From contig CANIHR010000014.1 in the NCBI GenBank assembly GCA_947467185.1, positions 1 through 36,736 of the forward strand: DNA of 36,736 nt. The letters are read 5' to 3'. This document shows, one piece after another, positions 22,011-36,736 of this stretch; the first letter of the stretch is position 1; every line of letters starts with the position of its first letter. The position numbers and the translations under genes were made by a program. The notes under the pieces were generated by a model. The model saw only the letters and a list, made by a program, of their open reading frames with translations, was not told the DNA's origin and ran no database searches. Source of the DNA: Bryobacterales bacterium. GTDB taxonomy: Bacteria > Acidobacteriota > Terriglobia > Bryobacterales > Bryobacteraceae.

Positions 22011-22691
22011 CTAGATCGAATGCAGTTCGCGGCGGAGCGAGTCGATTTCGCGCTGGGCCGTTTCCTGATGCTGCCGAATCAGGATGAGTGCGGTGCAGAT
22101 GAGGAAGACAGCGAGGACGCCGAGCCCGAAGGGGGCGTGGAATTCCTTGGCCATGGTGCCGGTCTCGAGGACCGGGCCAGGGTGCTGGGTGCGGACGTTC
22201 GGCAGGCGGATCGCCATGAGAACGAGCGGGATATCCGCGTAAGCAAAGATGGCGACGAAGGCCGAGAGCGTGGCGCGCTGGGTGGGTTCGGCGATGGCCG
22301 GGCGGACGAGCAGGTAGCCGAGGTAGAGGAGGAAGCACATCAACTGGCTGGTCATGCGGAGATCCCACGCCCACCAGATGCCCCACTGATTGCGGCCCCA
22401 GATGCTGCCGGTGACGAGGTTGACGAGGACGAGCATGGTGCCGACTTCGATGCAGGAGACCGAGATGGAATCCCAGACGAAGTTCTTCTTCACCAGGAAG
22501 AGAATGCTGGTGATGAGGGAGACGGTGAAGAAGATCTGGGCGTTGATGGCGGCCGGGACGTGGATGAAGATGATGCGGTAGATGGCCCCCTGCATGGCTT
22601 CGTCGGGAAGATCCATGAAGACCGTTTTCAGGTTGGGGATCATGACCAGGGCGGCCAGGATTGCCAGTAGGTAAATTGCTTTTTCTCGCAT
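22011..22691 (-). CDS. ccmC: CcmC, haem handling protein of cytochrome c maturation
   Basis: 226 aa. Six membrane segments with the tryptophan-rich haem-binding motif 'WGIWWAWDLRMTSQL' (about residues 103-117), and His in 'IFIHVPAAI' and near the last periplasmic loop. CcmC presents haem to CcmE in the periplasm together with CcmA, B and D. The ATG has GAGGAGAAAC close upstream. Length is normal for CcmC. It follows ccmB by 10 bp. Confidence 0.93.
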   Translation of the reverse strand: MREKAIYLLAILAALVMIPNLKTVFMDLPDEAMQGAIYRIIFIHVPAAINAQIFFTVSLITSILFLVKKNFVWDSISVSCIEVGTMLVLVNLVTGSIWGRNQWGIWWAWDLRMTSQLMCFLLYLGYLLVRPAIAEPTQRATLSAFVAIFAYADIPLVLMAIRLPNVRTQHPGPVLETGTMAKEFHAPFGLGVLAVFLICTALILIRQHQETAQREIDSLRRELHSI

Positions 22692-22701
22692 TCGTTTCTC
22701 C

Positions 22702-23385
22702 TCAGACTATCAGGATGAACTCAATCATGTAGAGCGCCAGGGACGTGTAGATAACGTCGAACCCGATGAGGAGGCGGAGTGAGGCGATGGCCTCTCCGGA
22801 CATGGGTTCTCCCTGTAAAAGCGCGGTTGTGGTGCCCATCGCGCCGATGAGCAGCGGAATCAGGATGGGGTAGAGCAGGACCGGCAACATCAGTTCGCGG
22901 AGGCGGATATTGACGGTGACGGCGGAGAACGCCGTGCCGACAACGGTGATGCCCCAGGTGGCGAGCGCCATCACGAGGAGCAGGCCCGGGAAGTTCTGGG
23001 TCCAGTGGATGTTGTAGAAGAGGCCGAAGACGGGGAGCGAAATCAGCTCGACAATGAAAAGCAGGAAGAAGGCCGCGACGGACTTGCCAAGAAAGATGGA
23101 CCAGGCGGGGGCGGGGGAGGCGATCAGGACGTCGAGGCAGTCGTTGGGGAGTTCGCGGGCGAAGCTGCGGTTGACGATGAGGGCCCCGGCGAAGGAGAAG
23201 ACGAGCCATAGGAGGCCGCCGGCGATGGCGTAGAGTTCTTCGCGGCCGAGGTCGAAGGCAAAGCTGAACAGAACGAGGATGACGAGCGCGAAGGAGGCGC
23301 TCGCGTTGATGGATTCCTTAGTCCGGAGTTCCGTCTGGAGATCTTTTTTCGCGATGGCGAGGGCGGTGATCAGGCCACGTTTCAT
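22702..23385 (-). CDS. ccmB: CcmB, membrane subunit of the CcmAB ABC complex
   Basis: 227 aa, six membrane helices. The N-terminal amphipathic 'AIAKKDLQTELRTKESINAS' and 'LLWLVFSFAGALIVNRSFARE' segments are typical of CcmB, the integral partner of the CcmA ATPase. The complex uses ATP to release haem-loaded CcmE from CcmC. The start overlaps the ccmA stop as ATGA. Confidence 0.93.
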   Translation of the reverse strand: MKRGLITALAIAKKDLQTELRTKESINASASFALVILVLFSFAFDLGREELYAIAGGLLWLVFSFAGALIVNRSFARELPNDCLDVLIASPAPAWSIFLGKSVAAFFLLFIVELISLPVFGLFYNIHWTQNFPGLLLVMALATWGITVVGTAFSAVTVNIRLRELMLPVLLYPILIPLLIGAMGTTTALLQGEPMSGEAIASLRLLIGFDVIYTSLALYMIEFILIV

Positions 23386-24092
23386 TCCTGTACCTGCCTG
23401 TCTCCGTAAGTGCGGTAGAGCCAGCCGGGGTCGGCCAGCATTTCGGGCGTCTGGGGGCCGGTGTGGACGATTTTGCCCCGTTCGAGGAGCGCGACGTTGG
23501 TGGCCAGTTCCATGGCTTCACGGATCTGGTGGGTGGACATGACGATGGTGGCGCCCCGGGAGAGGGCATCTCTCAGGAGAGCCTGTAGGACGTTGATGGC
23601 GCGGTCATCGAGGGAGGTGAAGGGCTCGTCGAGGAGGAGGAGTTCGGGTTGGTGGAGAAAGGCGCGCGCGACGGCGAGGCGCTGGCGCATGCCGCGAGAA
23701 AATTCGCGGGCCATGCCGTCTTTCACGCGTTCGAGGCCGACGCGTTCGAGGGCTTCGATGGCGGCCTTTTCGGGGTTTTCAACGCCGAGGAGGCGACCGA
23801 AGAGCAGGAGGTTTTCGATGGCGGAGAGGTCGTCATAGACGCCAATGCCGTGGCCGAGATAGCCGGTCTTGCGGCGGACGACATCACCACGGCTGGCATC
23901 GCCAAAGATCTTCACCTCGCCTTTGGTGGCGCGGGAGAGGTTGGCGAGGATGCGCAGCAGGGTAGTCTTGCCGGCGCCGTTGCGGCCGAGCAGGGCCATG
24001 CAGGCTCCCTGGGGTACCTGGAGACTGGAGCCACGGAGGGCGGGGTAGTCGCCGAAGTACTTCCAGACGCGATCAGCTTCGACCGCGAGCAT
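23382..24092 (-). CDS. ccmA: CcmA, ATPase subunit of the haem-release ABC complex
   Basis: 236 aa. Walker A GRNGAGKTT (36-44), ABC signature 'FSRGMRQRLAVARA' (a variant of LSGGQ that is common in CcmA), Walker B 'LLLLDEPF', and the H-loop 'MSTHQ'. It hydrolyses ATP on the cytoplasmic face with CcmB. The start overlaps the end of the upstream carboxypeptidase-regulatory-like gene by 20 bp, and the stop overlaps ccmB by 4 bp, so the operon is tightly coupled. Confidence 0.94.
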   Translation of the reverse strand: MLAVEADRVWKYFGDYPALRGSSLQVPQGACMALLGRNGAGKTTLLRILANLSRATKGEVKIFGDASRGDVVRRKTGYLGHGIGVYDDLSAIENLLLFGRLLGVENPEKAAIEALERVGLERVKDGMAREFSRGMRQRLAVARAFLHQPELLLLDEPFTSLDDRAINVLQALLRDALSRGATIVMSTHQIREAMELATNVALLERGKIVHTGPQTPEMLADPGWLYRTYGDRQVQE

Positions 24093-25188
24093 TTTTGGTG
24101 GCCTTTTTCACTGCGGCTGCTTCGGCTGCCGCTTCCGTTGTGGCTGCCGGGACAGCTTTCCGGTAGAGGAGGATGAAGCCGATGGCGAGCATGGAGAAGA
24201 CGCTCAGGAGAAGCCACTTCACGGCGAGGAAAGTCGCCAGAATGTCCGCCGAGCCGAGGGTCAGACCGTAGAGCTTCGGCAGGTTCATGGTGAGAGCGGG
24301 CTGGCCGTTGCCGCCTTCGCCTCCACCTTCGCCACCGCCGGCGGCTGCCGCGGAATCGGCAAGCGATCCGGTGCCTTCCACCTTGAATTCGATAGCAGGG
24401 CCGTCCACACCCCAGATAGTGGCTTTGGTGCGGGGTTCCTGGCCGAGATTCTTCAGGCCGTCGCCCTTAAATTCGACGCCCACGGGGGCGATGATGCGGG
24501 TCTGACCACCTTTGGTGAGGATCTGGTCCTTGAAGACGCCGGGGACGGGGAAGGGCATGGTCCACTGCAGGTCTACGCGGGATTCGCCGGGCTTGATGGG
24601 GAAATCGAGCTTGTACGTGTTGGGTTTGGGGCCTGGATCCGGAGCTTTGCGGAGCGGCAGACCGCCGGGGGCGAGGGCGTTGACTTCCACCTTTCCCTGC
24701 GACTGCGGGGGGAGGTAGAACTGGAGCGTGCCGGTGTCGGGATTGTTCCAGGTGGTCTTGCCGTCGTTCCGGATGACGTAGCTTTCGCTGACGGTGAGGG
24801 TCCCGTCGGCGGAGGGTTCCAGCAGGATCATGTGCTGGTCAATCTGAGCCGCGCCCTGAGCTTTGCTGGATTCGAAGACGGGGATTTCGACCGCTGTTAC
24901 GGGCGAACCCGGGGGCAGCATCTTGTTGTACTGGACTCCGCCGTAGACGGCCTGGAGCAGCAGGGGGCCGCCGCCTTTGCCGGGGGCGACGTCTTCGGTG
25001 AAAACGAACTTGCCCTGAGCGTCGGATTTGACGCTGTTGATGAACTGGGGACCCTGCTGGCTGGTCTGGAAGAGGGTGACGGTGGCGCCGGAAGCGGGTT
25101 TGCCGGTGGAGGAGTTGGTGACGACACCATCGACGCCCGCGAGGGCCAGGGGGGCGCAAAGGAGGATGCTTGCTACGAGACGTCTCAC
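24073..25188 (-). CDS. Carboxypeptidase-regulatory-like domain membrane protein in ccm operon
   Basis: 371 aa, GTG start at 25188 overlapping the TAG of the zinc-ribbon gene by one base. A signal peptide (about 20 residues) is followed by a carboxypeptidase-regulatory-like beta-sandwich (GVVTNSSTGKPASGATVTLF ... SDAQGKFVF, about residues 18-90). Then come a larger strand-rich region, a Gly-rich linker near residue 290, and a single membrane helix (AVKWLLLSVFSMLAIGFILLY) near the C-terminus with a basic alanine-rich cytoplasmic tail. So the bulk is periplasmic. It is placed between ccmH and ccmA and overlaps ccmA by 20 bp. It is not a known Ccm component to me. A periplasmic chaperone or apocytochrome-binding role is only a guess. 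Confidence 0.8.
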   Translation of the reverse strand: MRRLVASILLCAPLALAGVDGVVTNSSTGKPASGATVTLFQTSQQGPQFINSVKSDAQGKFVFTEDVAPGKGGGPLLLQAVYGGVQYNKMLPPGSPVTAVEIPVFESSKAQGAAQIDQHMILLEPSADGTLTVSESYVIRNDGKTTWNNPDTGTLQFYLPPQSQGKVEVNALAPGGLPLRKAPDPGPKPNTYKLDFPIKPGESRVDLQWTMPFPVPGVFKDQILTKGGQTRIIAPVGVEFKGDGLKNLGQEPRTKATIWGVDGPAIEFKVEGTGSLADSAAAAGGGEGGGEGGNGQPALTMNLPKLYGLTLGSADILATFLAVKWLLLSVFSMLAIGFILLYRKAVPAATTEAAAEAAAVKKATKNARGRS

Positions 25189-25625
25189 TATGCGGTCTCC
25201 GTTTCGGACATCGGTTTGCCGCATTCGCCGCAGAATTTCAGGGCTTTTTCAAACTGTGCTCCGCAGGTGGGGCAGGTGTGTTTTTGCGCGACCGGCGCGG
25301 GGGCCGGGGGGGCTGGTTTGGCTGCCACCGTTTTCGCCACGGGCTGGCCAAGTTCGGCTTTCAGGCGGTCTTCCTCGGCGCGGACCTTGGCGAGTTCCTT
25401 CTGGAGCTCGATTTTGGTTGAGTTGTAGTCTTCGTCGGAGAGTTTGTCCAGACGGTATTCGAACTGGAGGTCGCGCAGACCTTCGTAAATGGCCGCTTTT
25501 CGCTCATCCAAATGGCGGAAGGGGGAAACAGGGGCAGCCGTTGGCAAATCCACGGCTCGGATAAAGATCAGGTAGCCGACCATGGCGGCTCCCAACAACG
25601 CTCCAGCGATCAGGCTTGGGTCCAC
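25188..25625 (-). CDS. CcmI-like N-terminal anchor fused to a C-terminal zinc ribbon
   Basis: 145 aa, GTG start. A single N-terminal membrane helix (IAGALLGAAMVGYLIFI) leads into 'ERKAAIYEGLRDLQFEYRLDKLSDEDY', which resembles the conserved segment after the first helix of CcmI. A coiled coil (ELQKELAKVRAEEDRLKAEL) and a Pro/Ala linker follow, then a four-cysteine zinc ribbon (CPTCGAQFEKALKFCGECG) at about residues 118-136. The usual TPR domain of CcmI is absent. In this topology the zinc ribbon would be cytoplasmic if the N-terminus is out, or periplasmic if in. It starts 7 bp after the ccmH stop. Possibly an adaptor of the maturation complex. Confidence 0.78.
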   Translation of the reverse strand: MDPSLIAGALLGAAMVGYLIFIRAVDLPTAAPVSPFRHLDERKAAIYEGLRDLQFEYRLDKLSDEDYNSTKIELQKELAKVRAEEDRLKAELGQPVAKTVAAKPAPPAPAPVAQKHTCPTCGAQFEKALKFCGECGKPMSETETA

Positions 25626-25632
25626 TGCGAAC

Positions 25633-26133
25633 TTATTCCAGTCTTTCCGTATCCCGTTCGATCTCGGCGCGATATTTCGCGTAGATCGGATCTTCGGGTT
25701 CCAAATGTGCCTGCCCGGCGATGGCAGGCTTCAGGGTCTTCGGGCCCATCATCTTTTTCAGAACGATCCAGACCACGCCCGCGCCGACGAGCAGCGACAG
25801 GTAGGGGATCATCCAGAAGAAAGAGTTGGGGTCCTGGCGGAAGATTTTCTCGCCGTATTCTTTGACGAACGATGCAATGATGGCCTCGTCACTTTGGCCG
25901 TTTTTTTGCATCTCCCAGATCTTCGTGCGGGCCGGTTTACAGAAGTGGCACTGGCCCGACGACATATTGCAATTCAGGTTCTCGAGACAGGAACCACACT
26001 GGCAGGAGAGCTTGTTGCCGACGCGCTTGACCTCATCGCTTTCGATTTGCGAAGCGGTCTGGGCGAGGGCGGAATGGCTCAGGGTGGCGAGGGCCACCAG
26101 GAGCAGAAGAAAACTAAACTTCAACCGGCGCAT
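25633..26133 (-). CDS. ccmH: CcmH-like protein with an atypical cysteine cluster
   Basis: 166 aa. Signal peptide to about residue 25; a three-helix CcmH/CycL core ('DEAIIASFVKEYGEKIF' is highly typical); then a membrane helix (FFWMIPYLSLLVGAGVVWIVL) and a short tail. The family's LRCxxCQ redox motif is replaced by 'LSCQCGSCLENLNC' with further 'QCHFC': Cys44, 46, 49, 55, 62 and 65. Ordinary CcmH reduces the apocytochrome CxxCH disulfide; here six cysteines could give other redox or metal chemistry. The start overlaps ccmF by 20 bp. No ccmG/DsbE thioredoxin gene is in the operon. Confidence 0.85.
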   Translation of the reverse strand: MRRLKFSFLLLLVALATLSHSALAQTASQIESDEVKRVGNKLSCQCGSCLENLNCNMSSGQCHFCKPARTKIWEMQKNGQSDEAIIASFVKEYGEKIFRQDPNSFFWMIPYLSLLVGAGVVWIVLKKMMGPKTLKPAIAGQAHLEPEDPIYAKYRAEIERDTERLE

Positions 26134-28120
26134 TGGCTTTGGCCACTCCCACGACTTCGGTACGCGTATAAGCCCGCGCGACTTTGCTCGGAATGAGGCA
26201 AACGAGGGTGCCTCCGATGACTACGAGAATGCCGATCCAGATCCACTCGACGAGCGGGAAAACGTAGGCCTGCAGAGTGGCTTTGTCACCGGAACGGGCA
26301 GCGTAGTTGATGTAGAGATCTTCGTTGAGACGGCTGCGGAGGGCGACGATCGCGGTGGCCTGCTGGGCCGCCTTGTAGAACCGGCGGGTGGGCTCCACGA
26401 TTTCGATGAAGCTACCGTTTTTCGAAACTTCGAGTTTGGCGGTTTCCCACTGGTAGTTGGCGGTGTCGCCTTCGGTGAGGTCGAGAACCTTGAGGTCGTA
26501 GGAACCGACCTTCATGGTTGCTCCTTTGGCCACTTCGCCGACCGAGGTCTGGTTAAAGGGATGGCCGCTCCAGCCGATGAACATCAGCACCATGCCCATG
26601 TGGACGAGGTAACCACCGTAGCGGCGGGTGTTGCGGTGGGTGAGTTCGATGACGGCGGGGATAAAGCCTGTCTTTGTCTTTTCGCTGATAGCGTTGGCAC
26701 CACGGAAGAATTCGAGCACGATGGTGGCGGTGACGAAGAAGCAGAGGCTGAGCGAAATGATGGAGTACGGGTAGCGCATGCCGAAGGCGAACAGGAGGCC
26801 GGCGGTGACGAGAGTGCCGATGCCGGGCCACTGGAAGTTCTTGCGGAGGCTGTCAATGGAGGTACGCCGCCAGGCGAAGAGAGGTCCGACGCCCGTTAAG
26901 AAGAGCAGCGCGAGACCGATGGGGACCATGAGGCGGTTGAACCAGACGGCGTCGAGGCTGATCTTTTCGTTGGAGAGCTTTTCAGTGATGACCGGGAAGA
27001 GGGTGCCCCAGAGGACGGCGAAGCAACTGGCGAGCAGAATCAGGTTGTTAAACAGGAAGCTGGATTCGCGGGAGACGACGCTTTCGAGGTCGGATTCACT
27101 GCGGAGGTAGTTCAGGCGGTCCAGGATGAGCCAGACCGTGGCAGCGATTCCAAGCGCGAGGAAGGCGACGAAGTACTTGCCGATGGGGGATTCCGCGAAG
27201 GCGTGGACGGAGCTGACGATACCGGAGCGGGTCAGGAAGGTACCGAAGATGCAGAGGAAGAACGTGGACGAGATGAGCACCATGTTCCAGACCTTCATCA
27301 TGCCCTTTTTTTCCTGCATCATGACGGAGTGGAGGAAGGCGGTGGCGCCGAGCCAGGGGAGGAGGGAGGCGTTTTCAACGGGATCCCACATCCAGTATCC
27401 GCCCCAGCCGAGGACGTGATAGGCCCAGGCGGAGCCGAGACCGATGCCCATGCCCTGGAACAGCCAGGTGACGATGGACCAGCGGCGGGTGGTGTGGATC
27501 CAGCTTTCGCCCGGCGCCTTTTCGATGAGGGAGGCCATGGCGAAGGCGAATGGGACGGCGAAACCGACGTAACCGAGGTACAGGAAGGGCGGGTGAATGA
27601 CCATCGCCCAGTACTGCAGGAGGGGATTGAGGCCCATGCCGTCCGCGACGGAGGTGACTACTTTATCGACGGCCAGAACCTGGAAGGGGCTGGCGATAAA
27701 GGCGTTGAGGATGAGGAAGAAGACCTGGATGACGGAGAGGATTGAGACGACCCACGGCAGCAGATTGCGGTGCGCCTTGCGGGAGGTGAGGACGGCGACA
27801 GCTGCGTAGGTGGAGAGCAGCCAGCTCCAAAAGAGGAGCGAGCCTTCCTGTCCGCCCCACCAGGCGGCGAACTTGTAGAAGCCCGGCATCTCACGGTTGG
27901 TGTGGCTGGCGACGTAGGCCATGCGGTAGTCGCTGGTCATGAGACCGTAGACGAGGATGCCGGCGGCAGTGGAGACGAGCGCCCAGACGGCGAGCACAGC
28001 CCTTTCTCCACTGAGCGTGAGGAACGGTTTCCCCTTCAACCGCCCGACAACACTGGAGATGATTGCGTACAGCGAGATGCAGAACGCCAGAAGCAGCGCA
28101 AGTGCGCCTACGTTTTCCAT
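26114..28120 (-). CDS. ccmF: CcmF, haem lyase subunit
   Basis: 668 aa with about 14-15 membrane segments. The CcmF haem-handling motif 'WGGYWMWDPVENASLLPWL' (about residues 240-258) is intact, as is 'HPPFLYLGYVGF' with its ligand His. 'YGGYLVHMGMVLMFIGWSG' provides a further conserved His, and a large periplasmic domain precedes the last helix (FPLVEWIWIGILVVIGGTLV). CcmF transfers haem from CcmE to the cysteines of the apocytochrome. Length is normal. No clear Shine-Dalgarno before the ATG at 28120; a strong hairpin lies between ccmE and ccmF. Confidence 0.94.
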   Translation of the reverse strand: MENVGALALLLAFCISLYAIISSVVGRLKGKPFLTLSGERAVLAVWALVSTAAGILVYGLMTSDYRMAYVASHTNREMPGFYKFAAWWGGQEGSLLFWSWLLSTYAAVAVLTSRKAHRNLLPWVVSILSVIQVFFLILNAFIASPFQVLAVDKVVTSVADGMGLNPLLQYWAMVIHPPFLYLGYVGFAVPFAFAMASLIEKAPGESWIHTTRRWSIVTWLFQGMGIGLGSAWAYHVLGWGGYWMWDPVENASLLPWLGATAFLHSVMMQEKKGMMKVWNMVLISSTFFLCIFGTFLTRSGIVSSVHAFAESPIGKYFVAFLALGIAATVWLILDRLNYLRSESDLESVVSRESSFLFNNLILLASCFAVLWGTLFPVITEKLSNEKISLDAVWFNRLMVPIGLALLFLTGVGPLFAWRRTSIDSLRKNFQWPGIGTLVTAGLLFAFGMRYPYSIISLSLCFFVTATIVLEFFRGANAISEKTKTGFIPAVIELTHRNTRRYGGYLVHMGMVLMFIGWSGHPFNQTSVGEVAKGATMKVGSYDLKVLDLTEGDTANYQWETAKLEVSKNGSFIEIVEPTRRFYKAAQQATAIVALRSRLNEDLYINYAARSGDKATLQAYVFPLVEWIWIGILVVIGGTLVCLIPSKVARAYTRTEVVGVAKANAPVEV

Positions 28121-28198: not shown

Positions 28199-28660
28199 CT
28201 AGAGGCTGGAGCGGTACGACGAGCTCTGGCCTTCGTTGACGATCTTTTTCTGCAGGCCATCCGGAGCCATTCCGGGCTTCGGGGCGTATTTGGAGGCGCA
28301 CTTGGCCTGGACTTCCTGCGCGTGGAAGACGCCGGAATCGTCAAGGCGTCCACCAGCGAGAGCCTGGGCACCGTCCTTAAAGGTATCGGGCAGCGGATCG
28401 CGACCTTCATAGACAACGGCGAGGACTTTCGATTCCTGCACGAGGTTGAATTTGACGGTACCGGCTACACGGACGATGGAATTTTCCTGAATGTCGCCAC
28501 CGACGCGAACGCGTTTGGACGAAGCCTGGTGGCCCATCTTATTGAGTTCGGTGATGGTGACGTAATAGGTTTTCGAGCTTTGAATCGACGCCGTGGCGAC
28601 CCAGGTGATGGAGCCGACGATCAGGGCGATCAAGATTCCGAACTTTGCGTACTTGCGCAT
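28199..28660 (-). CDS. ccmE: CcmE haem chaperone, Cys-type (CxxxY) variant
   Basis: 153 aa from the ATG at 28660, with GAGGAGAG 7 nt upstream. An N-terminal membrane anchor (FGILIALIVGSITWV) is followed by the OB-fold barrel of CcmE (RVRVGGDIQENSIVR, 'LAVVYEGRDPLPDTFKDG', 'VFHAQEVQAKCASKY'). In ordinary CcmE the haem-binding histidine lies in HxxxY; here the position is Cys121 with Tyr125 (CASKYAP). The CxxxY form is known from archaea and some bacteria as a System I variant that usually lacks CcmH. Here CcmH is present but altered. The chaperone would carry haem through a thioether or similar bond to Cys121. First gene of the ccm operon. Confidence 0.92.
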   Translation of the reverse strand: MRKYAKFGILIALIVGSITWVATASIQSSKTYYVTITELNKMGHQASSKRVRVGGDIQENSIVRVAGTVKFNLVQESKVLAVVYEGRDPLPDTFKDGAQALAGGRLDDSGVFHAQEVQAKCASKYAPKPGMAPDGLQKKIVNEGQSSSYRSSL

Positions 28661-28733: not shown

Positions 28734-29387
28734 CTAAATTCCGTGGGTACCTTCCGGGTGGCATAGTAAGCATGCCTCCCTGGCTGACGAACCTTCCGCC
28801 GCGAAAACAGTTTCGCCCTGAGTCCAGGAGACCATTTCGGTTCCCGCCATCCGGTTGGACGCCGTATGTGGTTTTTTGCCGGGGTTACCTTTCCAAATTA
28901 CGACTGTACGGTCCTTTTCAGGGGAGCCGCTAATCGCTTCGTACTTTAGAGATGCAACCAGAGTGCCACGGAGATTTACTACCCTTGCGCCGACTACTTT
29001 GACCGACGGGGGATGATCGGGAAGCGCTATCTCTATGCCGCTATGGGACTTAACCCACTGGCGGAGGCGGACGGGGTCATTGGAGTAGATGTCGCAGGCA
29101 TCGGCGGCAGAGGCGAGGGAGGCGATGGTGGAGGGGTCCGGTTGCGCGAATTGGCGCAAACTCCCCCTGGCCTTGCTGAATTCCCAAAGCAGATCGGCGG
29201 ATGCCAGCAGCATCAACAGGGCAATTGCGGGCCACAAAAAGCGAGTTGGGCCTGTTTCGGCACGACTGGCCGCTGCCGGGGCCTGAATGCGGGCCCAGAG
29301 CCGGTCCGGCGCGGTGGCCGGACGTAATTCCTCACGCAATTTATCGGCCAGCCAATTGGGGGTGACGGAACTTTGTTCGGGCGTCAT
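28734..29387 (-). CDS. Transmembrane anti-sigma factor with C-terminal CxxCH motif
   Basis: 217 aa. Its ATG overlaps the stop of the ECF sigma gene (ATGA), the standard sigma/anti-sigma arrangement. Residues 1-48 are a short cytoplasmic domain without a zinc-binding HxxxCxxC. Residues about 49-67 form one membrane helix (FLWPAIALLMLLASADLLW). The remaining 150 residues are periplasmic and resemble the C-terminal part of many anti-sigma factors (VRLRQWVKSHSGIEIALPD ... VVGARVVNLRGTLVASLKYE ... VSWTQGETVFAAEG). The last 13 residues contain Cys206-Leu-Leu-Cys209-His210, a c-type haem attachment motif, on the periplasmic side. The ccm operon begins 73 bp downstream on the same strand. The function as anti-sigma factor is inferred from context and topology. 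Confidence 0.75.
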   Translation of the reverse strand: MTPEQSSVTPNWLADKLREELRPATAPDRLWARIQAPAAASRAETGPTRFLWPAIALLMLLASADLLWEFSKARGSLRQFAQPDPSTIASLASAADACDIYSNDPVRLRQWVKSHSGIEIALPDHPPSVKVVGARVVNLRGTLVASLKYEAISGSPEKDRTVVIWKGNPGKKPHTASNRMAGTEMVSWTQGETVFAAEGSSAREACLLCHPEGTHGI

Positions 29388-29959
29388 TGAGAATCCTTTG
29401 CTGAAGAGGGGCCAAGTTGGGGACGGAGGCGGCGTTCGAGGATGGCGTGGGCGCGGTTGAGGCGCGAGGCGACGGTGCCCGAGGGGCAGTCGAGGATGGT
29501 CGCGATTTCCTCGTAGGGCAGCCCGAGGGAGTAGCGGAGGACGACGATCATGCGGAAATCGGGGTCGAGCCGGGCGATGGCGTTGCGGACCAGGCTGGTC
29601 TGTTCCGACTGGAGGAGGTCTTCCAGGGGGCCGCGGCCTGGACCTTTGAGATAGCTGACGAGGGTATCGACGAGGGGGATGAGGCGGCGGGTCTTGCGTT
29701 TTTGGTCGAAACAGGCGTTGACGACGAGGCGGTAGAGCCAGGAGTCGAAGCGCGAGTCGCCGCGGAAGGTGGTGAGGGCGGCGAAGAGCTTGATGAAGAC
29801 GTTCTGAGTGACATCTTCGGCGGTGGAGGCGTCGCCCGAGTAGCGAAGGGCCAGGGTGTAGACGCGGTCCTTATAGAGGTCAAAGAGGTTGCGCTGAGCC
29901 GCGAGGTCACCGCGACGGCAGGCGTCGAGAAGTTCGGACTGTGTCTCTTCGAGCAGCAA
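29384..29959 (-). CDS. ECF-type RNA polymerase sigma factor
   Basis: 191 aa, TTG start (first possible start after an upstream in-frame TGA; GAGG lies close before it). Region 2 is clear (LFDLYKDRVYTLALRYSGDA, AEDVTQNVFIKLFAALTTFR, FDSWLYRLVVNACFDQKRK), with a linker of about 40 residues, then region 4 (LDPDFRMIVVLRYSLGLPYEEIATIL, GTVASRLNRAHAILERRL). This is the RpoE-like extracytoplasmic-function class. The anti-sigma gene overlaps by 4 bp. An ECF-like promoter (29978-30005) precedes it and may be its own target. The regulon may include the ccm operon downstream. Confidence 0.92.
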   Translation of the reverse strand: MLLEETQSELLDACRRGDLAAQRNLFDLYKDRVYTLALRYSGDASTAEDVTQNVFIKLFAALTTFRGDSRFDSWLYRLVVNACFDQKRKTRRLIPLVDTLVSYLKGPGRGPLEDLLQSEQTSLVRNAIARLDPDFRMIVVLRYSLGLPYEEIATILDCPSGTVASRLNRAHAILERRLRPQLGPSSAKDSQ

Positions 29960-29977
29960 ATTGCCTCAGCACCACTT

Positions 29978-30005
29978 TAGACGCGGGGCGCGGCGGGAAT
30001 CTTCC
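29978..30005 (-). promoter_or_regulatory. Candidate ECF-type promoter of the sigma/anti-sigma operon
   Basis: On the minus strand GGAAGA (30000-30005) is separated by 16 bp from CGTCTA (29978-29983). GGAA(C) -35 and CGTC -10 elements with 16-17 bp spacing are the usual ECF pattern. It lies 18 bp before the TTG start at 29959, which would allow autoregulation. By eye only. Confidence 0.45.
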
Positions 30006-30826: not shown

Positions 30827-33800
30827 ATGCAAAATCGCCTGGTTGGCATTGCGTTACTAATTTCCGCTATTTCCCCCGCATTGGCTCCGGCCCAAACGGG
30901 AACCTGGGTTATCGATACTTTGGCAGGGCGTGATCGTCCGGTTAACGATGGTGGCCCGGGGTATTCGGCACCTCTGAATTTTCCGTACGGAATCGTGGCT
31001 GATTCAAGTGGGAATATCATTTTTGCCGATTCGGGGAACCATCGGGTACGGCGGATTTCGCCATCGGGAACGATTACAACGATCGCCGGGACGGGACAGG
31101 CCGGGTATACGGGCGATGGTGGTGCGGCGACCGCGGCCACTCTGGTGAAACCGCAGGGGCTGGCGCTGGATTCGAGCGGGAGCCTTTACATCGCTGACTA
31201 TACGGCGAACGTTGTTCGCAAGGTGCTGCCCGACGGCACGATTATTACGTGGGCGGGGACGGGCGCACCGGGGAATACAGGGAATGGCGGGAAGGCGACG
31301 TCTGCCACTCTGTTCGGACCGTATGCATTGGCGGCAGATTCCAGCGGAGCGCTGTATATTGCCGATGAACTGAATTCGACTGTCAGAAAAGTGACGGCCG
31401 ATGGTACGATTTCGGCGCTGACGTCGACGAAATTTTCCTATCCGGAGGGGCTTGCTGTCGATTCCACTGGAAATGTTTATGTAGCGACGTATGGCGACAA
31501 CAAGATTTATAAAGTGACGCCGGCCGGCGTGGTGAGTACCGTGGCAGGAACCGGCAGCTATGGCTTCGGGGGCGACGGGAATTTGGCGACTGCCGCTTTT
31601 CTGGCAGGGCCACAGGGGTTGGCGTTTGACGCGACAGGGAATTTGTGGATTTGCGACGCCTACAACAACCGGCTGCGGCGGCTTTCGACGGACGGGAAAA
31701 TTCAGACGATTGCGGGTTCCGGCTCGATTGGCTTGAGTGGATTCTCTTCGGAACCCCTGAACGCCGCCATCTACACGCCGGTTGGGATCGCGCTGGATTC
31801 GAAGGGACTGGTTTACTGGACGGAAATCGGGAACAACCGGGTGCGGGTGTTCAATCCGGCGAGCAAGCAGATCACGGAGATTGGGGGCTTCACGCTGCCG
31901 CTGGTAGCGACGGGCGGGCCGACGGCGCAGACGCTGTTCAATCCCTTCTCGACGGCGGTGGATACGGCGGGGAATCTGTTCATTGCGGACACGACGAACA
32001 ACCTGGTACGGAAGATTACGCCCGCCGGGGTGAGCAGCATTTTTGCGGGTACGGGGCAGGCGAACTTCAATGGCGAAGTGGGCGTGGCCACGGCGACGAA
32101 TATCTCGGCGCCGCAGGGTGTGGCGGTGGATCCGCAAGGCGTTGTCTACATTGCCGAAAGTGGCAGTGGCCGGGTGCGGAAGGTGGATACGACAGGCCGT
32201 ATTTCGACGGTGATGGGGAATGGCACCGGGTTGCCATTCTCCGGGACGTTCGCGGGGAATGCATTCCTGTTTACCCCGACCGGGGTTGCGGCGACGGGCA
32301 ACGGGACGTTCGCGATGGTGGACCAGATCTTCGGGATTGCGGCGCGGGTGGATGCGCTGGGGACCATCACGCTGATTCCGACTTCCGCGGTGAACTTCAT
32401 GACGTATCCGGCGGGGATTGCGGTCTCCGGGGCGAGTACTTATATTGCCGACACATTCGGGAACCGGATTCTGAAGAATACGGGGAGCACGACCACGGTG
32501 ATTGCGGGGACAGGCGCGCCGGGCTATACGGGAGACGGTGCGGCGGCCAACAAGGCGACGCTGTTCCTGCCGAACGGGGTGGCGGTCGATTCGAAAGAGA
32601 ACATCTACATTGCGGACACCGGCAATAACGTGATCCGGATGATCGACACGACGGGCAAGATCACGACGATTGCGGGCACGGGGAAGCCGGGCTTCAGTGG
32701 AGACAAGGGACCAGCGGCTCTGGCGACACTCTCGACGCCGACGGGTGTGACAGTGGATGCCTCGGGGAATCTACTGGTTACGGACCGGAATAACCAGAGG
32801 GTCCGGCAGTTGCAGTTTGTGCAGATTCCGCCGGACTTCACGGTGGGGTCGGATTTCACGTTTAAGGCAGCGAACCGGGGGACGAGTGTGGTTGTGCCTC
32901 TGACGCTGAGTTCGGTGGGTGGTTTTGCGGGGTCAGTGACGCTTACGGTGACGCCGCCCGCGGGAGTGACGGTCGATTTTTCTCCGGCGACAGCGCGGAC
33001 GCTGGCGGCGGGACAGTCGGCACCGGTGAGCGCGACGGTCAAGTTGCCGGCGACGATGGCACCGGATACGGTGACGCTGACCTTTGTTGCGACTGCGGGG
33101 ACAGTGACGCACAACACGGTGGTGACGATCAACGTGACGGATGCGCCGCTGGTGACTTCGAGCGGGATTGTGAATGCGGGTTCGTATTCAGGCGGCGGCG
33201 TGGCGCCGGGCGAGATTGTGGCGGTCTACGGACAGGATCTGGGGCCGGCCGATCTGGCGCTGGGGTCCTTTGATGCGAGCAACGTGCTGAGTTCGACGGT
33301 GGGCGGGACGCAGGTTCTGTTTGACGGGGTTCCGGCGCCGCTGGTGTACGTGACGGCGGGGCAGTTGAGCGCGATCGTTCCCTATTCGGTGGCTGGCAAG
33401 ACCACAACGCAGGTGCAGATCAAGGCGGCAGGGAAAACGTCCACTGCCGTGGCAGTGCCGGTAACGGATGCGGTGCCTGGCATTTTCAATCTGCCGGGCG
33501 TGACGCAGGCCGCATCGCTAAATGCCGATTTGAGCCTGAATAATGCCAGTCAGCCGGCAGAGAAGGGTTCGATTGTGGTGCTGTTTGCGACAGGTGAGGG
33601 GCAGACGAGCCCCGGGGGCGTGGACGGCAAGATCGCGACCGAAGTGTTTCCGAAGCCGGTGCTGCCCGTCACGGTAACGATTGGCGGGGTGGACGCGGAA
33701 GTGGCGTATTACGGCGCGGCACCGTTCCAGGTGGCCGGCGTGATGCAGTTGAACGTAAAAGTGCCGACCTCCGTGACCTCCGGTGATGTTCCGGTGGTCC

Positions 33801-33853
33801 TGAAGGTCGGTACGAAGACTTCACAGGCTCAGTCAACGATTCGCGTGAAGTAG
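30827..33853 (+). CDS. Secreted NHL-repeat beta-propeller protein with TIGR03437 C-terminal domain
   Basis: 1008 aa. Signal peptide (MQNRLVGIALLISAISPALA), then about 640 residues of NHL repeats, each with the pattern 'P.GlAvD..GnlYiADt.NnrVRki...G.itTiAGtG..G..GdGg.A..A.l' (for example at residues 36-75, 85-130, 335-385, 560-660). An immunoglobulin-like domain of about 100 residues follows (from about 665). The C-terminal domain from about residue 777 begins 'SSGIVNAGSYSGGGVAPGEI' and contains 'VYVTAGQLSAIVPYSVAG' and 'KGSIVVLFATGEGQTSPGG'. This is the repeat-associated TIGR03437 domain of Solibacter-like bacteria. An extracellular or surface protein; ligand unknown. A close paralogue follows 43 bp later. 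Confidence 0.9.
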   Translation: MQNRLVGIALLISAISPALAPAQTGTWVIDTLAGRDRPVNDGGPGYSAPLNFPYGIVADSSGNIIFADSGNHRVRRISPSGTITTIAGTGQAGYTGDGGAATAATLVKPQGLALDSSGSLYIADYTANVVRKVLPDGTIITWAGTGAPGNTGNGGKATSATLFGPYALAADSSGALYIADELNSTVRKVTADGTISALTSTKFSYPEGLAVDSTGNVYVATYGDNKIYKVTPAGVVSTVAGTGSYGFGGDGNLATAAFLAGPQGLAFDATGNLWICDAYNNRLRRLSTDGKIQTIAGSGSIGLSGFSSEPLNAAIYTPVGIALDSKGLVYWTEIGNNRVRVFNPASKQITEIGGFTLPLVATGGPTAQTLFNPFSTAVDTAGNLFIADTTNNLVRKITPAGVSSIFAGTGQANFNGEVGVATATNISAPQGVAVDPQGVVYIAESGSGRVRKVDTTGRISTVMGNGTGLPFSGTFAGNAFLFTPTGVAATGNGTFAMVDQIFGIAARVDALGTITLIPTSAVNFMTYPAGIAVSGASTYIADTFGNRILKNTGSTTTVIAGTGAPGYTGDGAAANKATLFLPNGVAVDSKENIYIADTGNNVIRMIDTTGKITTIAGTGKPGFSGDKGPAALATLSTPTGVTVDASGNLLVTDRNNQRVRQLQFVQIPPDFTVGSDFTFKAANRGTSVVVPLTLSSVGGFAGSVTLTVTPPAGVTVDFSPATARTLAAGQSAPVSATVKLPATMAPDTVTLTFVATAGTVTHNTVVTINVTDAPLVTSSGIVNAGSYSGGGVAPGEIVAVYGQDLGPADLALGSFDASNVLSSTVGGTQVLFDGVPAPLVYVTAGQLSAIVPYSVAGKTTTQVQIKAAGKTSTAVAVPVTDAVPGIFNLPGVTQAASLNADLSLNNASQPAEKGSIVVLFATGEGQTSPGGVDGKIATEVFPKPVLPVTVTIGGVDAEVAYYGAAPFQVAGVMQLNVKVPTSVTSGDVPVVLKVGTKTSQAQSTIRVK
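33254..33309 (+). repeat. 56-bp exact repeat, copy 1 (in first NHL gene)
   Basis: Identical over 56 bp to 36336-36391, within the TIGR03437 coding part. The flanking sequences of the two genes also match closely over several hundred bases, while their NHL-coding parts differ at many synonymous and non-synonymous sites. Confidence 0.85.
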
Positions 33854-33878
33854 TGTGGAACCCTGTACCTGGCTTTAG

Positions 33879-33887
33879 TGTGATAAT
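33879..33887 (+). promoter_or_regulatory. Extended -10 element of the second NHL gene
   Basis: TGTGATAAT (TGn then GATAAT, 5 of 6 to consensus) ends 6 nt before GTG at 33894, which is in frame with ATG at 33897. No Shine-Dalgarno is present. It also shows that the second NHL gene has its own promoter despite the 43-bp gap. Confidence 0.5.
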
Positions 33888-33896
33888 TCTCGCGTG

Positions 33897-36736
33897 ATGC
33901 TGAAGCGCCTGTGGCAATTCGTTTGGATATTCGCCGGAATTGCTCCTGCAGGTACAATGGCGCAGACGAATACCTGGGTGATTGACACGGTTGCCGGGCG
34001 CGACCGTCCGGTAACAGAGGGCACCCCTGCTGCGAAGGCTTCTGTGAATCAGCCTGGCGGTGTGGTTGTTGACGGACGTGGCAATGTGATTTTTTCAGAC
34101 TCCGGGAACCACCGGGTTCGGAGAATCAGTCCGGCGGGAACCATCACCACACTGGCGGGAACGGGCGAAGGTGGGTATTCCGGAGATGGCGGGGCCGCTT
34201 CCGCGGCAACGCTCATGCGGCCCGAAGGCCTGGCCCTGGATGCGAACGGCAACCTTTACATTGCCGACTATGCAGCCAACGTTGTGCGAAAAGTGCAGCC
34301 CGACGGAATGATCACGACGTGGGCGGGCACGGGAGTTTCCGGGAACAGTGGAAATGGCGGACGGGCCACCGCAGCTACACTGGCTGGCCCCTGGTCGCTG
34401 GCGATGGACCCCAAGGGCAATCTCTTTATTGGGGAGGATCTGAATTCCACGATACGGAAAGTGACGCCTGCGGGAACGATCTCGCTGTTGTCGGAGACGA
34501 AATTTTCCTATCCGGAAGGGCTGGCGGCTGATTCTTCCGGCAATGTGTATGTCGCGACTTATCCGGCCAGCAGGATCTTCAAAGTGACGCCCTCCGGTTT
34601 GGTGAGTACTTTTGCGGGAACCGGCAGGCTGGGGTTCTCCGGCGATGGAGCGCTTGCCACGGCGTCGGAACTGGCACGACCGACGGGGCTGGCCATTGAC
34701 CCGAGCGGGAATCTCTGGTTAGCGGACACGATCAACAACCGTCTCCGGAAGATTTCGCCCGAGGGGAACATTGAGACGATAATCGGTTCGGGGAATATCG
34801 GTCTTACGCAGTTCGGCACCGATCCGCTGAAGGTTTCGCTTTACGTTCCGACGGCCGTTGCGACCGACGCCCGGGGGTACGTTTACTGGACGGAAACGGG
34901 CAACAACCGGATTTGCGTTTACAATCCCGGGAATCGCCAGATCACGACGCTGGCCGGTGTGCCGTTGCCCCCTGACACGGCCGGCGGGCCGCTGTCACAG
35001 GCCTTTTTCAACCCCTTCTCGAGTGCCTCCGACGAAGCCGGAAACCTGTATATCGCGGACACCAGCAACCACGTTGTTCGCAAGATCTCGCCGGAGGGTA
35101 CGGTCAGTATTATTGCGGGAACGGGGCAGACTGGTTTCAACGGGGAAGCCGGGCCGGCCACGGAGATCACTCTTTCGTCACCCCAGGGCGTGGCGGTAGA
35201 CCCGGACGGTATTGTTTTCATCGCTGACACCGGGAATGGCCGGGTGCGAAAGGTGATGCCCAGCGGATTCCTAGTGACCGTTATGGGGGGAGGAACTTTG
35301 GCGCCGGTATCGCATGCCGAGGGTACAAAGATCTTTCTGGTGGCGCCAACCGGGGTTGCAGCGATCCGGTACGGCTCTTTTGTTGTGGTGGATCAACGGA
35401 TGGAGATAGCCCTCATCGGAGATGCTTCGGGGCATGTTGGAATCTACTCCACCACGGAAGTGTACGGCCTGACGTCGCCCGCCTGTATTGCGGTTGCGGG
35501 GTCATTCCTGACCCAAATCACGGTGTGGGCGGCCGACACCTTCCGTAACCGGATTGTCCGGTTTGGCTTCCCCGAAACCGTGATTGCGGGCACGGGGACG
35601 TTGGGATATACCGGAGACGGTGGACCCGCGAGCCGGGCGACATTTTCACAGCCAGGCGGGATAGCCGCGGACGCGAGCGGGAATGTGTACATTGCCGATA
35701 CCGGAAACCATGTGATCCGCATGATCGACCCTGCGGGCACGATCAGTACGATCGCCGGTACAGGACGTGCCGGATTTTCTGGTGATAAGGGTCCGGCAGC
35801 GCTGGCGCAGTTGTCTTTCCCGACAGGAGTTGCTCTGGATTCTGCCGGAAACCTCCTTGTTACTGACAGCAACAATCAGCGGATACGAAAGCTTCGGTAT
35901 ATTCAGATTCCCGCGGATTTTGCGCTTGGTTCCGATGCCCCTTCGCCGGTCGCGAATCGAGGCAGCACAGTTGTTGTCCCTCTCACACTCACTTCGATTG
36001 CAGGGTTCACGGGGCCGGTCAGCCTTGCTGTGAATCCCCCTCCGGGTATTACGGTGCAGTTCTCTCCTGGGACGGCGTTTTCGATGAGGGCTGGGCAGAA
36101 GAGTGCCATCTCGGTGGCGATCCGGCTTCCGGCGACAACGGCGGCAGGTACGGTGACGCTGACCTTTGGGGCGACTTCGGGGACGGTGACGCACAACACG
36201 CAGGTAACGATCAACGTGACGGATTCGCCGCTGGTGACTTCGAGCGGGATCGTGAATGCCGGTTCCTACAGCGGTGGCGGTGTGGCTCCGGGTGAAATTG
36301 TGGCGGTTTATGGACAGGATCTGGGCCCGGCTAACCTGGCGCTGGGGTCCTTTGATGCGAGCAACGTGCTGAGTTCGACGGTGGGCGGGACTCAGGTGCT
36401 GTTTGACGGGGTTCCCGCACCGCTGGTGTATGTAACGGCGGGGCAGTTGAGCGCCATTGTGCCGTACTCGGTGGCGGGCAGGAGTGCGACGGAGGTGCTG
36501 GTCAAGGTGGCTGGCAAAACCTCTGCTGCTGTGGCAGTGCCGGTGACGGATGCGGTGCCGGGCCTTTTTAATCTGCCGGGCGTGACGCAGGCCGCCTCGC
36601 TGAATGCGGATTTGAGCCTGAATAATGCCCGCCAGCCGGCAGAGAAGGGTTCGATTGTGGTGCTGTTTGCGACCGGTGAGGGGCAGACGAATCCGGGGGG
36701 CGTGGACGGGAAGATCGCAACGGAAGTGTTTCCGAA
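33897..36736 (+). CDS. Second NHL-repeat/TIGR03437 protein (3' end outside window)
   Basis: 946 codons are present; the frame is open to the right edge, so the C-terminus is cut by the window. The start is ATG at 33897 (an adjacent in-frame GTG at 33894 is possible). Signal peptide 'LKRLWQFVWIFAGIAPAG' with cleavage near 'MAQ', then NHL repeats that follow the order of the first paralogue, an Ig-like region from about 35900, and the TIGR03437 domain from about 36240 ('SSGIVNAGSYSGGGVAPGEI'). The TIGR03437 part is nearly identical to that of the first gene at the DNA level, the NHL part is not. Product likely secreted or surface-located. Role unknown. Confidence 0.9.
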   Translation, partial: MLKRLWQFVWIFAGIAPAGTMAQTNTWVIDTVAGRDRPVTEGTPAAKASVNQPGGVVVDGRGNVIFSDSGNHRVRRISPAGTITTLAGTGEGGYSGDGGAASAATLMRPEGLALDANGNLYIADYAANVVRKVQPDGMITTWAGTGVSGNSGNGGRATAATLAGPWSLAMDPKGNLFIGEDLNSTIRKVTPAGTISLLSETKFSYPEGLAADSSGNVYVATYPASRIFKVTPSGLVSTFAGTGRLGFSGDGALATASELARPTGLAIDPSGNLWLADTINNRLRKISPEGNIETIIGSGNIGLTQFGTDPLKVSLYVPTAVATDARGYVYWTETGNNRICVYNPGNRQITTLAGVPLPPDTAGGPLSQAFFNPFSSASDEAGNLYIADTSNHVVRKISPEGTVSIIAGTGQTGFNGEAGPATEITLSSPQGVAVDPDGIVFIADTGNGRVRKVMPSGFLVTVMGGGTLAPVSHAEGTKIFLVAPTGVAAIRYGSFVVVDQRMEIALIGDASGHVGIYSTTEVYGLTSPACIAVAGSFLTQITVWAADTFRNRIVRFGFPETVIAGTGTLGYTGDGGPASRATFSQPGGIAADASGNVYIADTGNHVIRMIDPAGTISTIAGTGRAGFSGDKGPAALAQLSFPTGVALDSAGNLLVTDSNNQRIRKLRYIQIPADFALGSDAPSPVANRGSTVVVPLTLTSIAGFTGPVSLAVNPPPGITVQFSPGTAFSMRAGQKSAISVAIRLPATTAAGTVTLTFGATSGTVTHNTQVTINVTDSPLVTSSGIVNAGSYSGGGVAPGEIVAVYGQDLGPANLALGSFDASNVLSSTVGGTQVLFDGVPAPLVYVTAGQLSAIVPYSVAGRSATEVLVKVAGKTSAAVAVPVTDAVPGLFNLPGVTQAASLNADLSLNNARQPAEKGSIVVLFATGEGQTNPGGVDGKIATEVFP
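36336..36391 (+). repeat. 56-bp exact repeat, copy 2 (in second NHL gene)
   Basis: Exact copy of 33254-33309, 3082 bp downstream. See the first copy. Confidence 0.85.

Follow-up and report, generated by a model that had tools for sequence, protein, structure and literature searches.

Little is understood of how bacteria adjust cytochrome c maturation to demand, and the locus described here raises the question of whether an anti-sigma factor (ASF) could take part in this matching through a haem of its own. The window, by which we mean the whole analysed stretch of 36,736 nucleotides from a Bryobacterales bacterium (Acidobacteriota; GenBank assembly GCA_947467185.1, contig CANIHR010000014.1), had received a first-pass annotation made from the sequence alone. 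It drew attention to a membrane protein with Cys206-x-x-Cys209-His210 within its last 13 residues, to the ATGA overlap of its gene with an ECF sigma gene, and to genes of the cytochrome c maturation (Ccm) system 73 bp downstream. All three statements were borne out on the sequence.

The sigma-ASF-ccm operon

The genes concerned lie on the minus strand in the order sigma-ASF-ccmEFH-x-x-ABC and are given below in the direction of transcription, with the evidence for each assignment in brackets.

29977..30005, minus: ECF-type promoter GGAAG-N17-CGTCTAA of the sigma-ASF-ccm operon (dyad upstream of sigma genes)
29384..29959, minus: ECF sigma factor, TTG start (Pfam Sigma70_r2, 1e-17, and Sigma70_r4_2, 3e-13)
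28734..29387, minus: transmembrane protein, very probably an anti-sigma factor, with C-terminal CxxCH and a predicted c-type haem (open reading frame, conservation, profile match to the zinc branch)
28866..28868, minus: His174, candidate distal haem ligand (loop His conserved in groups A and B)
28758..28772, minus: CLLCH (residues 206-210), predicted to attach haem c and to supply the proximal ligand (invariant, 56/56)
28199..28660, minus: ccmE, with a CxxxY variant of the haem-binding motif (Pfam CcmE, 1.5e-24)
26114..28120, minus: ccmF (Pfam CcmF_C and Cytochrom_C_asm)
25633..26133, minus: ccmH (Pfam CcmH, 1.3e-11)
25188..25625, minus: operon gene for a membrane-anchored protein with a C-terminal zinc ribbon, in a CcmI-like position (weak DZR match)
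24073..25224, minus: conserved operon gene with a carboxypeptidase-regulatory-like domain (ccm-locus comparison, Pfam)
23382..24092, minus: ccmA, ABC ATPase (Pfam ABC_tran; adjoins ccmB)
22702..23385, minus: ccmB (groups in cluster c5 with an orthologue in L035, and that orthologue matches Pfam CcmB, 2.7e-36)
22011..22691, minus: ccmC (open reading frame, WGxxWxWD motif, position)

The ASF reading frame (29387..28734) encodes 217 amino acids with the C-terminus ...SSAREACLLCHPEGTHGI, and its overlap with the sigma gene (29959..29384) reads ...TCTCAATGACG; ccmE starts at 28660, which sets the distance of 73 bp from the ASF stop. Three operon products have features of their own. CcmE carries KCASKY, in which a Cys replaces the usual haem-binding His; the CxxxY type of CcmE is a variant known in some other bacteria and archaea. 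The product of 25188-25625 combines a membrane segment with a zinc ribbon (CPTC...CGEC) where CcmI might be expected, and both genera that share this arrangement keep the gene in their ccm loci. The product of 24073-25224 has a C-terminal membrane helix beside its carboxypeptidase-regulatory-like domain, which is unusual in a ccm operon.

Relationship to zinc anti-sigma factors and conservation of the motif

The structure model of the window ASF begins with a short helical N-terminus followed by one transmembrane helix (about residues 47-77). The remaining part is built of helices and about six strands, its last helix bearing the CxxCH, and the single transmembrane helix would place this domain on the periplasmic side. 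Pfam searches up to E=10 found no domain in the protein, including no cytochrome and no anti-sigma family, and its N-terminus is without Hx3Cx2C, the zinc motif that typifies zinc anti-sigma factors.

Its affiliation became apparent from two of its most distant relatives (L048 and L049), which join a normal zinc-type N-terminus to the same C-terminal motif. A profile built from these two found a phylum-wide branch in several other families (A3; hereafter the zinc branch, or group B), in which H30, C34 and C37 of the Hx3Cx2C motif are invariant and which matches RsiW (5.9e-9) and RsrA. Aligned by hhalign, the window and zinc branches matched with 99.7% probability over 202 columns, the zinc finger being absent from the window branch (group A). 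In fold comparisons, RsiW was nearest to the zinc-branch N-terminus at Z 7.6, below the reliability mark of 8. The periplasmic domain most resembled the C-terminal domain of RseB/MucB, the sensor partner of RseA/MucA, at Z 6.5-6.9, a likeness of fold only, with all top rows (Z 5.9-6.9) below 8; unlike in RseB/MucB, the domain here is part of the anti-sigma factor itself and has the haem motif on its last helix. Pfam cytochrome matches in the zinc branch were isolated, weak and limited to single members. A search for plasmid-borne relatives of this branch found none, and one scan of genome contigs returned only two close relatives.

The missing zinc motif and Pfam anti-sigma match would also suit a small membrane cytochrome that carries electrons or assists the Ccm system and is no anti-sigma factor at all. 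We regard this as very unlikely: the protein is homologous to zinc anti-sigma factors over most of its length, in every case where the contig reaches far enough to tell, its gene lies just 3' of one for an ECF sigma factor, often overlapping it, and in other genera the pair occurs without adjoining ccm genes. The window protein is thus, with high confidence, an anti-sigma factor. Because it has no zinc-finger part in its anti-sigma domain, sigma binding is predicted from gene context and homology.

The C-terminal motif is conserved far beyond the overall similarity of these proteins. It is kept in all 18 aligned group A relatives, which share 23-64% identity with the window ASF, and C206, L208, C209 and H210 make up four of only nine invariant columns in that alignment. 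Across the haem clade as a whole, all 56 distinct sequences carry CxxCH, including homologues down to about 25% identity, and every full-length relative of the same clade in the same gene order ends in it. Homologues in the same context without the cysteines or the histidine, which the first-pass annotation had named as telling against its proposal, were not found; all sigma-adjacent members of the clade keep the motif. L026, the one ordinary zinc anti-sigma factor among the relatives, is without CxxCH. When zinc-type proteins were scored with a profile from which the motif had been left out, all those at or above 139.5 bits carried CxxCH, these positives including the training members of the profile, and all those at or below 129.7 bits were without it. 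In a tree built without the motif columns, the CxxCH-negative proteins formed a single clade (support 100/98), and the motif therefore changed state once. A chance CxxCH in an ordinary anti-sigma factor is ruled out by the counts of 18/18 and 56/56, and its probability is negligible: the motif is strictly conserved across homologues about 25% identical and across the phylum, and, even with the motif columns removed, a clean gap from 130 to 139 bits divides the zinc family.

Several relatives have a much reduced periplasmic domain (L045, L047 and L050), retaining CxxCH and a His, and the mini form in G051 likewise retains the His and the motif (TLHY...ACQACH). Because these shrunken forms still end in CASCH, CHQCH, CRQCH or CQACH, the motif appears to be what selection keeps, and the sequences provide strong evidence that it is held more firmly than the remainder of the domain. 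The G051 protein (L217), encoded in a 137-aa frame upstream of ccmE, consists of a transmembrane helix and a short tail ending TLHYTAAQAPVKFAMQVACQACHNPSEL, and looks like a minimal haem-peptide sensor; the exact GGAAG-N17-CGTC site was not found in the stretch examined at this locus. The short haem anti-sigma factors of L047 and L050, each of about 137 aa (L047:5816-6232 and L050:3197-3610, with CHQCH and CRQCH), have no adjoining ccm or peroxidase gene, and in L047 a metallophosphoesterase gene lies 3' of the ASF gene.

A second histidine, H174 in the window protein, sits in a loop before the last strands. It is present in 24 of 26 window-branch and 28 of 30 zinc-branch sequences (52/56 in total), in the latter typically as xFHY or xFHF, and is missing in two members of each group, with Tyr in its place in the zinc-branch proteins L049 and L098. 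In the CxxCH-negative relatives, the loop is mostly shorter and has no equivalent His motif, scattered His residues often falling just before the following Trp. A proximal His within CxxCH together with a conserved distal His is the pattern expected of a low-spin c-type haem, so the conservation of the second His makes haem ligation more likely. The absence of any cytochrome Pfam family from the window ASF and the four sequences without the loop His speak against the haem reading. With these points included, we still consider it highly likely that a covalent c-type haem is attached to the anti-sigma factor.

The same residues could act without haem, as a periplasmic disulfide redox switch or as a metal site in which CxxC and two His bind, for example, zinc. 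Two Cys and two His would suffice for zinc, anti-sigma factors often use thiol switches, and in another g1 genome the gene next after the ASF encodes a TlpA/CcmG-like thioredoxin (WCRPC). We nevertheless find such a use improbable, since no CxxC variant without the His occurs among the 56 positives and 32 negatives aligned, a free periplasmic CxxCH in a Ccm-bearing cell is a Ccm substrate, and the genes are strongly linked to cytochrome c maturation and to haem peroxidases.

Promoters and gene neighbourhoods

The promoter core GGAAG-N17-CGTC occupies 29980-30005, and the sigma gene begins with its TTG codon about 20 bp further on. The same core is found upstream of sigma in 12 of 12 ccm loci and in 22 of 25 group A sigma regions, against a maximum of 3 in shuffled sequence, and the sigma factors encoded beside group A ASFs are 44-77% identical. 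In the 5.8-Mb genome, the strict form GGAAG-N17-CGTCTAA occurs once, at the window operon (two sites for the backwards control). Because this form is single in the genome, the sigma factor appears to be dedicated mainly to its own operon, and we are confident, though a degree short of certainty, that the ccm genes are driven by it. A wider regulon was not detected: in three genomes, matches to the looser pattern GGAAG-N17-CGTCT were equalled or exceeded by those of the backwards control, so weaker targets are indistinguishable from chance. Across six g2 genomes, a form that ends in CGTCKTA marks the ccm loci and a few scattered sites, the latter no commoner than in controls.

A sigma gene lies upstream of the CxxCH ASF gene in 48 fetched regions and in the window. 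The order sigma-ASF-ccmE recurs in 15 genomes of two genera, a count made up of the window, 12 fetched relatives in which it continues through ccmF-ccmH, and G041 and G051, where the pair (with the mini form in G051) lies directly upstream of ccmE; in L031, one of the 12, the contig edge removes the sigma gene. The g1 genome with the TlpA/CcmG-like gene after the ASF is of the same genus as the window and adds a further link to cytochrome c maturation. Adjacency to ccm as a general rule was rejected, as most ccmE loci checked outside the two genera are without the pair; it is confined to some members of these genera, and most ccm operons in the family lack it. The comparison suggested in the first-pass annotation thus gave a divided answer, in that CxxCH is conserved beside sigma genes and ccm neighbours recur in the 15 genomes, but not as a general property of these anti-sigma factors.

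The zinc branch has a different setting. Its sigma-ASF pairs are often divergent from a CCP_MauG di-haem peroxidase gene (PF03150, 5e-62), in loci that also carry a phosphoesterase and a monohaem cytochrome; other divergent partners are a protein with two CxxCH motifs or a peroxidase of KatG type that apparently bears a signal peptide. The KatG-type cases are L129 and L132 (genes L129_3 and L132_6), each divergent from the haem anti-sigma pair with the same promoter. This promoter, GGAAT-N15-GTGTT, differs from that of the window branch and lies upstream of both the sigma gene and the divergent gene, facing both directions in 9 loci. Its exact form gave 10 matches in eight genomes, all in sigma/divergent-gene intergenic regions, and the backwards control had no match. 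One motif thus occurs in two independent contexts, that of cytochrome c maturation and that of haem peroxidases.

The ties of the sister branch to haem peroxidases point equally to a haem that senses peroxide or redox state. The covalent haem of the same protein would then serve as a chemical sensor of H2O2, of the redox state of the periplasmic electron chain or of a gas such as NO, a reaction at the iron changing the domain and freeing sigma, with Ccm as the response in the window and haem peroxidases in the sisters. The divergent peroxidase-linked genes, the shared two-way promoter and its confinement to those intergenic regions fit this explanation, as does the finding that c-haem Cache sensors bind NO (PMC12889525). 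For the window branch, no peroxidase target was seen and the only strict target is the Ccm operon; moreover, with a second His conserved, the haem would probably be six-coordinate and slow to react unless a ligand leaves. We hold this explanation to be a serious possibility at somewhat below even chances.

Proposed mechanism and known systems

The mechanism that we infer, from topology and haem attachment to sigma binding and release, starts from what is observed: the gene order, a conserved CxxCH and loop His, and a promoter whose strict form is restricted to this operon. On the cytoplasmic side, the N-terminus of the single-pass ASF would hold the ECF sigma factor encoded with it. The RseB/MucB-like periplasmic domain would bear a c-type haem bound covalently through thioethers to Cys206 and Cys209, with His210 as its proximal and His174 as its probable distal ligand. 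Free sigma would bind GGAAG-N17-CGTC and transcribe sigma, anti-sigma and ccmEFH-x-x-ABC, so that the anti-sigma factor would control the Ccm machinery and also be its client. With the haem absent or oxidatively altered, the domain would stop keeping sigma bound, or regulated proteolysis would cut it, and the released sigma would raise Ccm output; a loaded, intact anti-sigma factor would keep the operon off.

The first-pass annotation had proposed that the cell senses its haem supply or maturation capacity in this way, a reading that finds partial support here. Feedback from maturation capacity is attractive because the regulated Ccm genes would attach the ASF's own haem. Pure maturation sensing leaves the link of the sister branch to peroxidases unexplained, and whether the signal is haem loading or maturation, and not redox, we judge to be about evenly balanced. 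Maturation feedback and haem-based redox or peroxide sensing share covalent haem on the ASF as their core claim. The economical reading is a local loop of a haem-bearing anti-sigma factor, its sigma factor and dedicated haem-protein genes, and it suggests that these membrane switches read out haem state directly as gene expression. The whole proposal for the window, an anti-sigma factor with covalent periplasmic haem, a ccm operon under its sigma factor and release gated by the state of the haem, is one that we favour by a modest degree. Its extension to the phylum, in which these anti-sigma factors are c-type cytochromes, haemylation of the window ASF reports Ccm capacity and the sisters read peroxide or redox state, is more tentative and falls a little short of an even chance. 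If true, periplasmic haem state would be transduced directly to RNA polymerase, and the proteins would make up a large family open to testing, its promoters already predicted, on which a biosensor for Ccm capacity or for peroxide in the periplasm could naturally be modelled.

Several known systems share one feature each with this proposal, and none is an anti-sigma factor with its own CxxCH. Transmembrane class I (zinc) anti-sigma factors (RsiW, RsrA, RslA and ChrR) likewise have an ECF partner, operon overlap, a single transmembrane helix and a sigma-binding N-terminus, to which the haem clade adds the C-terminal CxxCH and the loop His, the window protein being without the zinc part. RseB-like sensors have the periplasmic fold discussed above. 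The c-haem Cache sensors (sCache_heme, DUF3365/Tll0287; GSU0582) are likewise sensor domains that gained CxxCH, and their reported outputs are kinases, MCPs and GGDEF/EAL proteins, with sigma nowhere mentioned (PMC12889525); their fold differs, and DUF3365/Tll0287 had no Pfam match in the window ASF or the zinc branch. In HasS/HasI haem-acquisition surface signalling, haem status likewise sets anti-sigma/ECF activity, but the haem binds non-covalently to the hemophore and the outer-membrane receptor, not to the anti-sigma factor (PMC11442138). The first-pass annotation had known of no anti-sigma factor that is a c-type cytochrome, and the literature searched, which included ECF papers but not the main ECF classification paper, contains no description of one.

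Beyond the operon, on the plus strand at 30827-36734, the window encodes two adjoining NHL-repeat paralogues of about 1000 aa each, with near-identical C-terminal parts.
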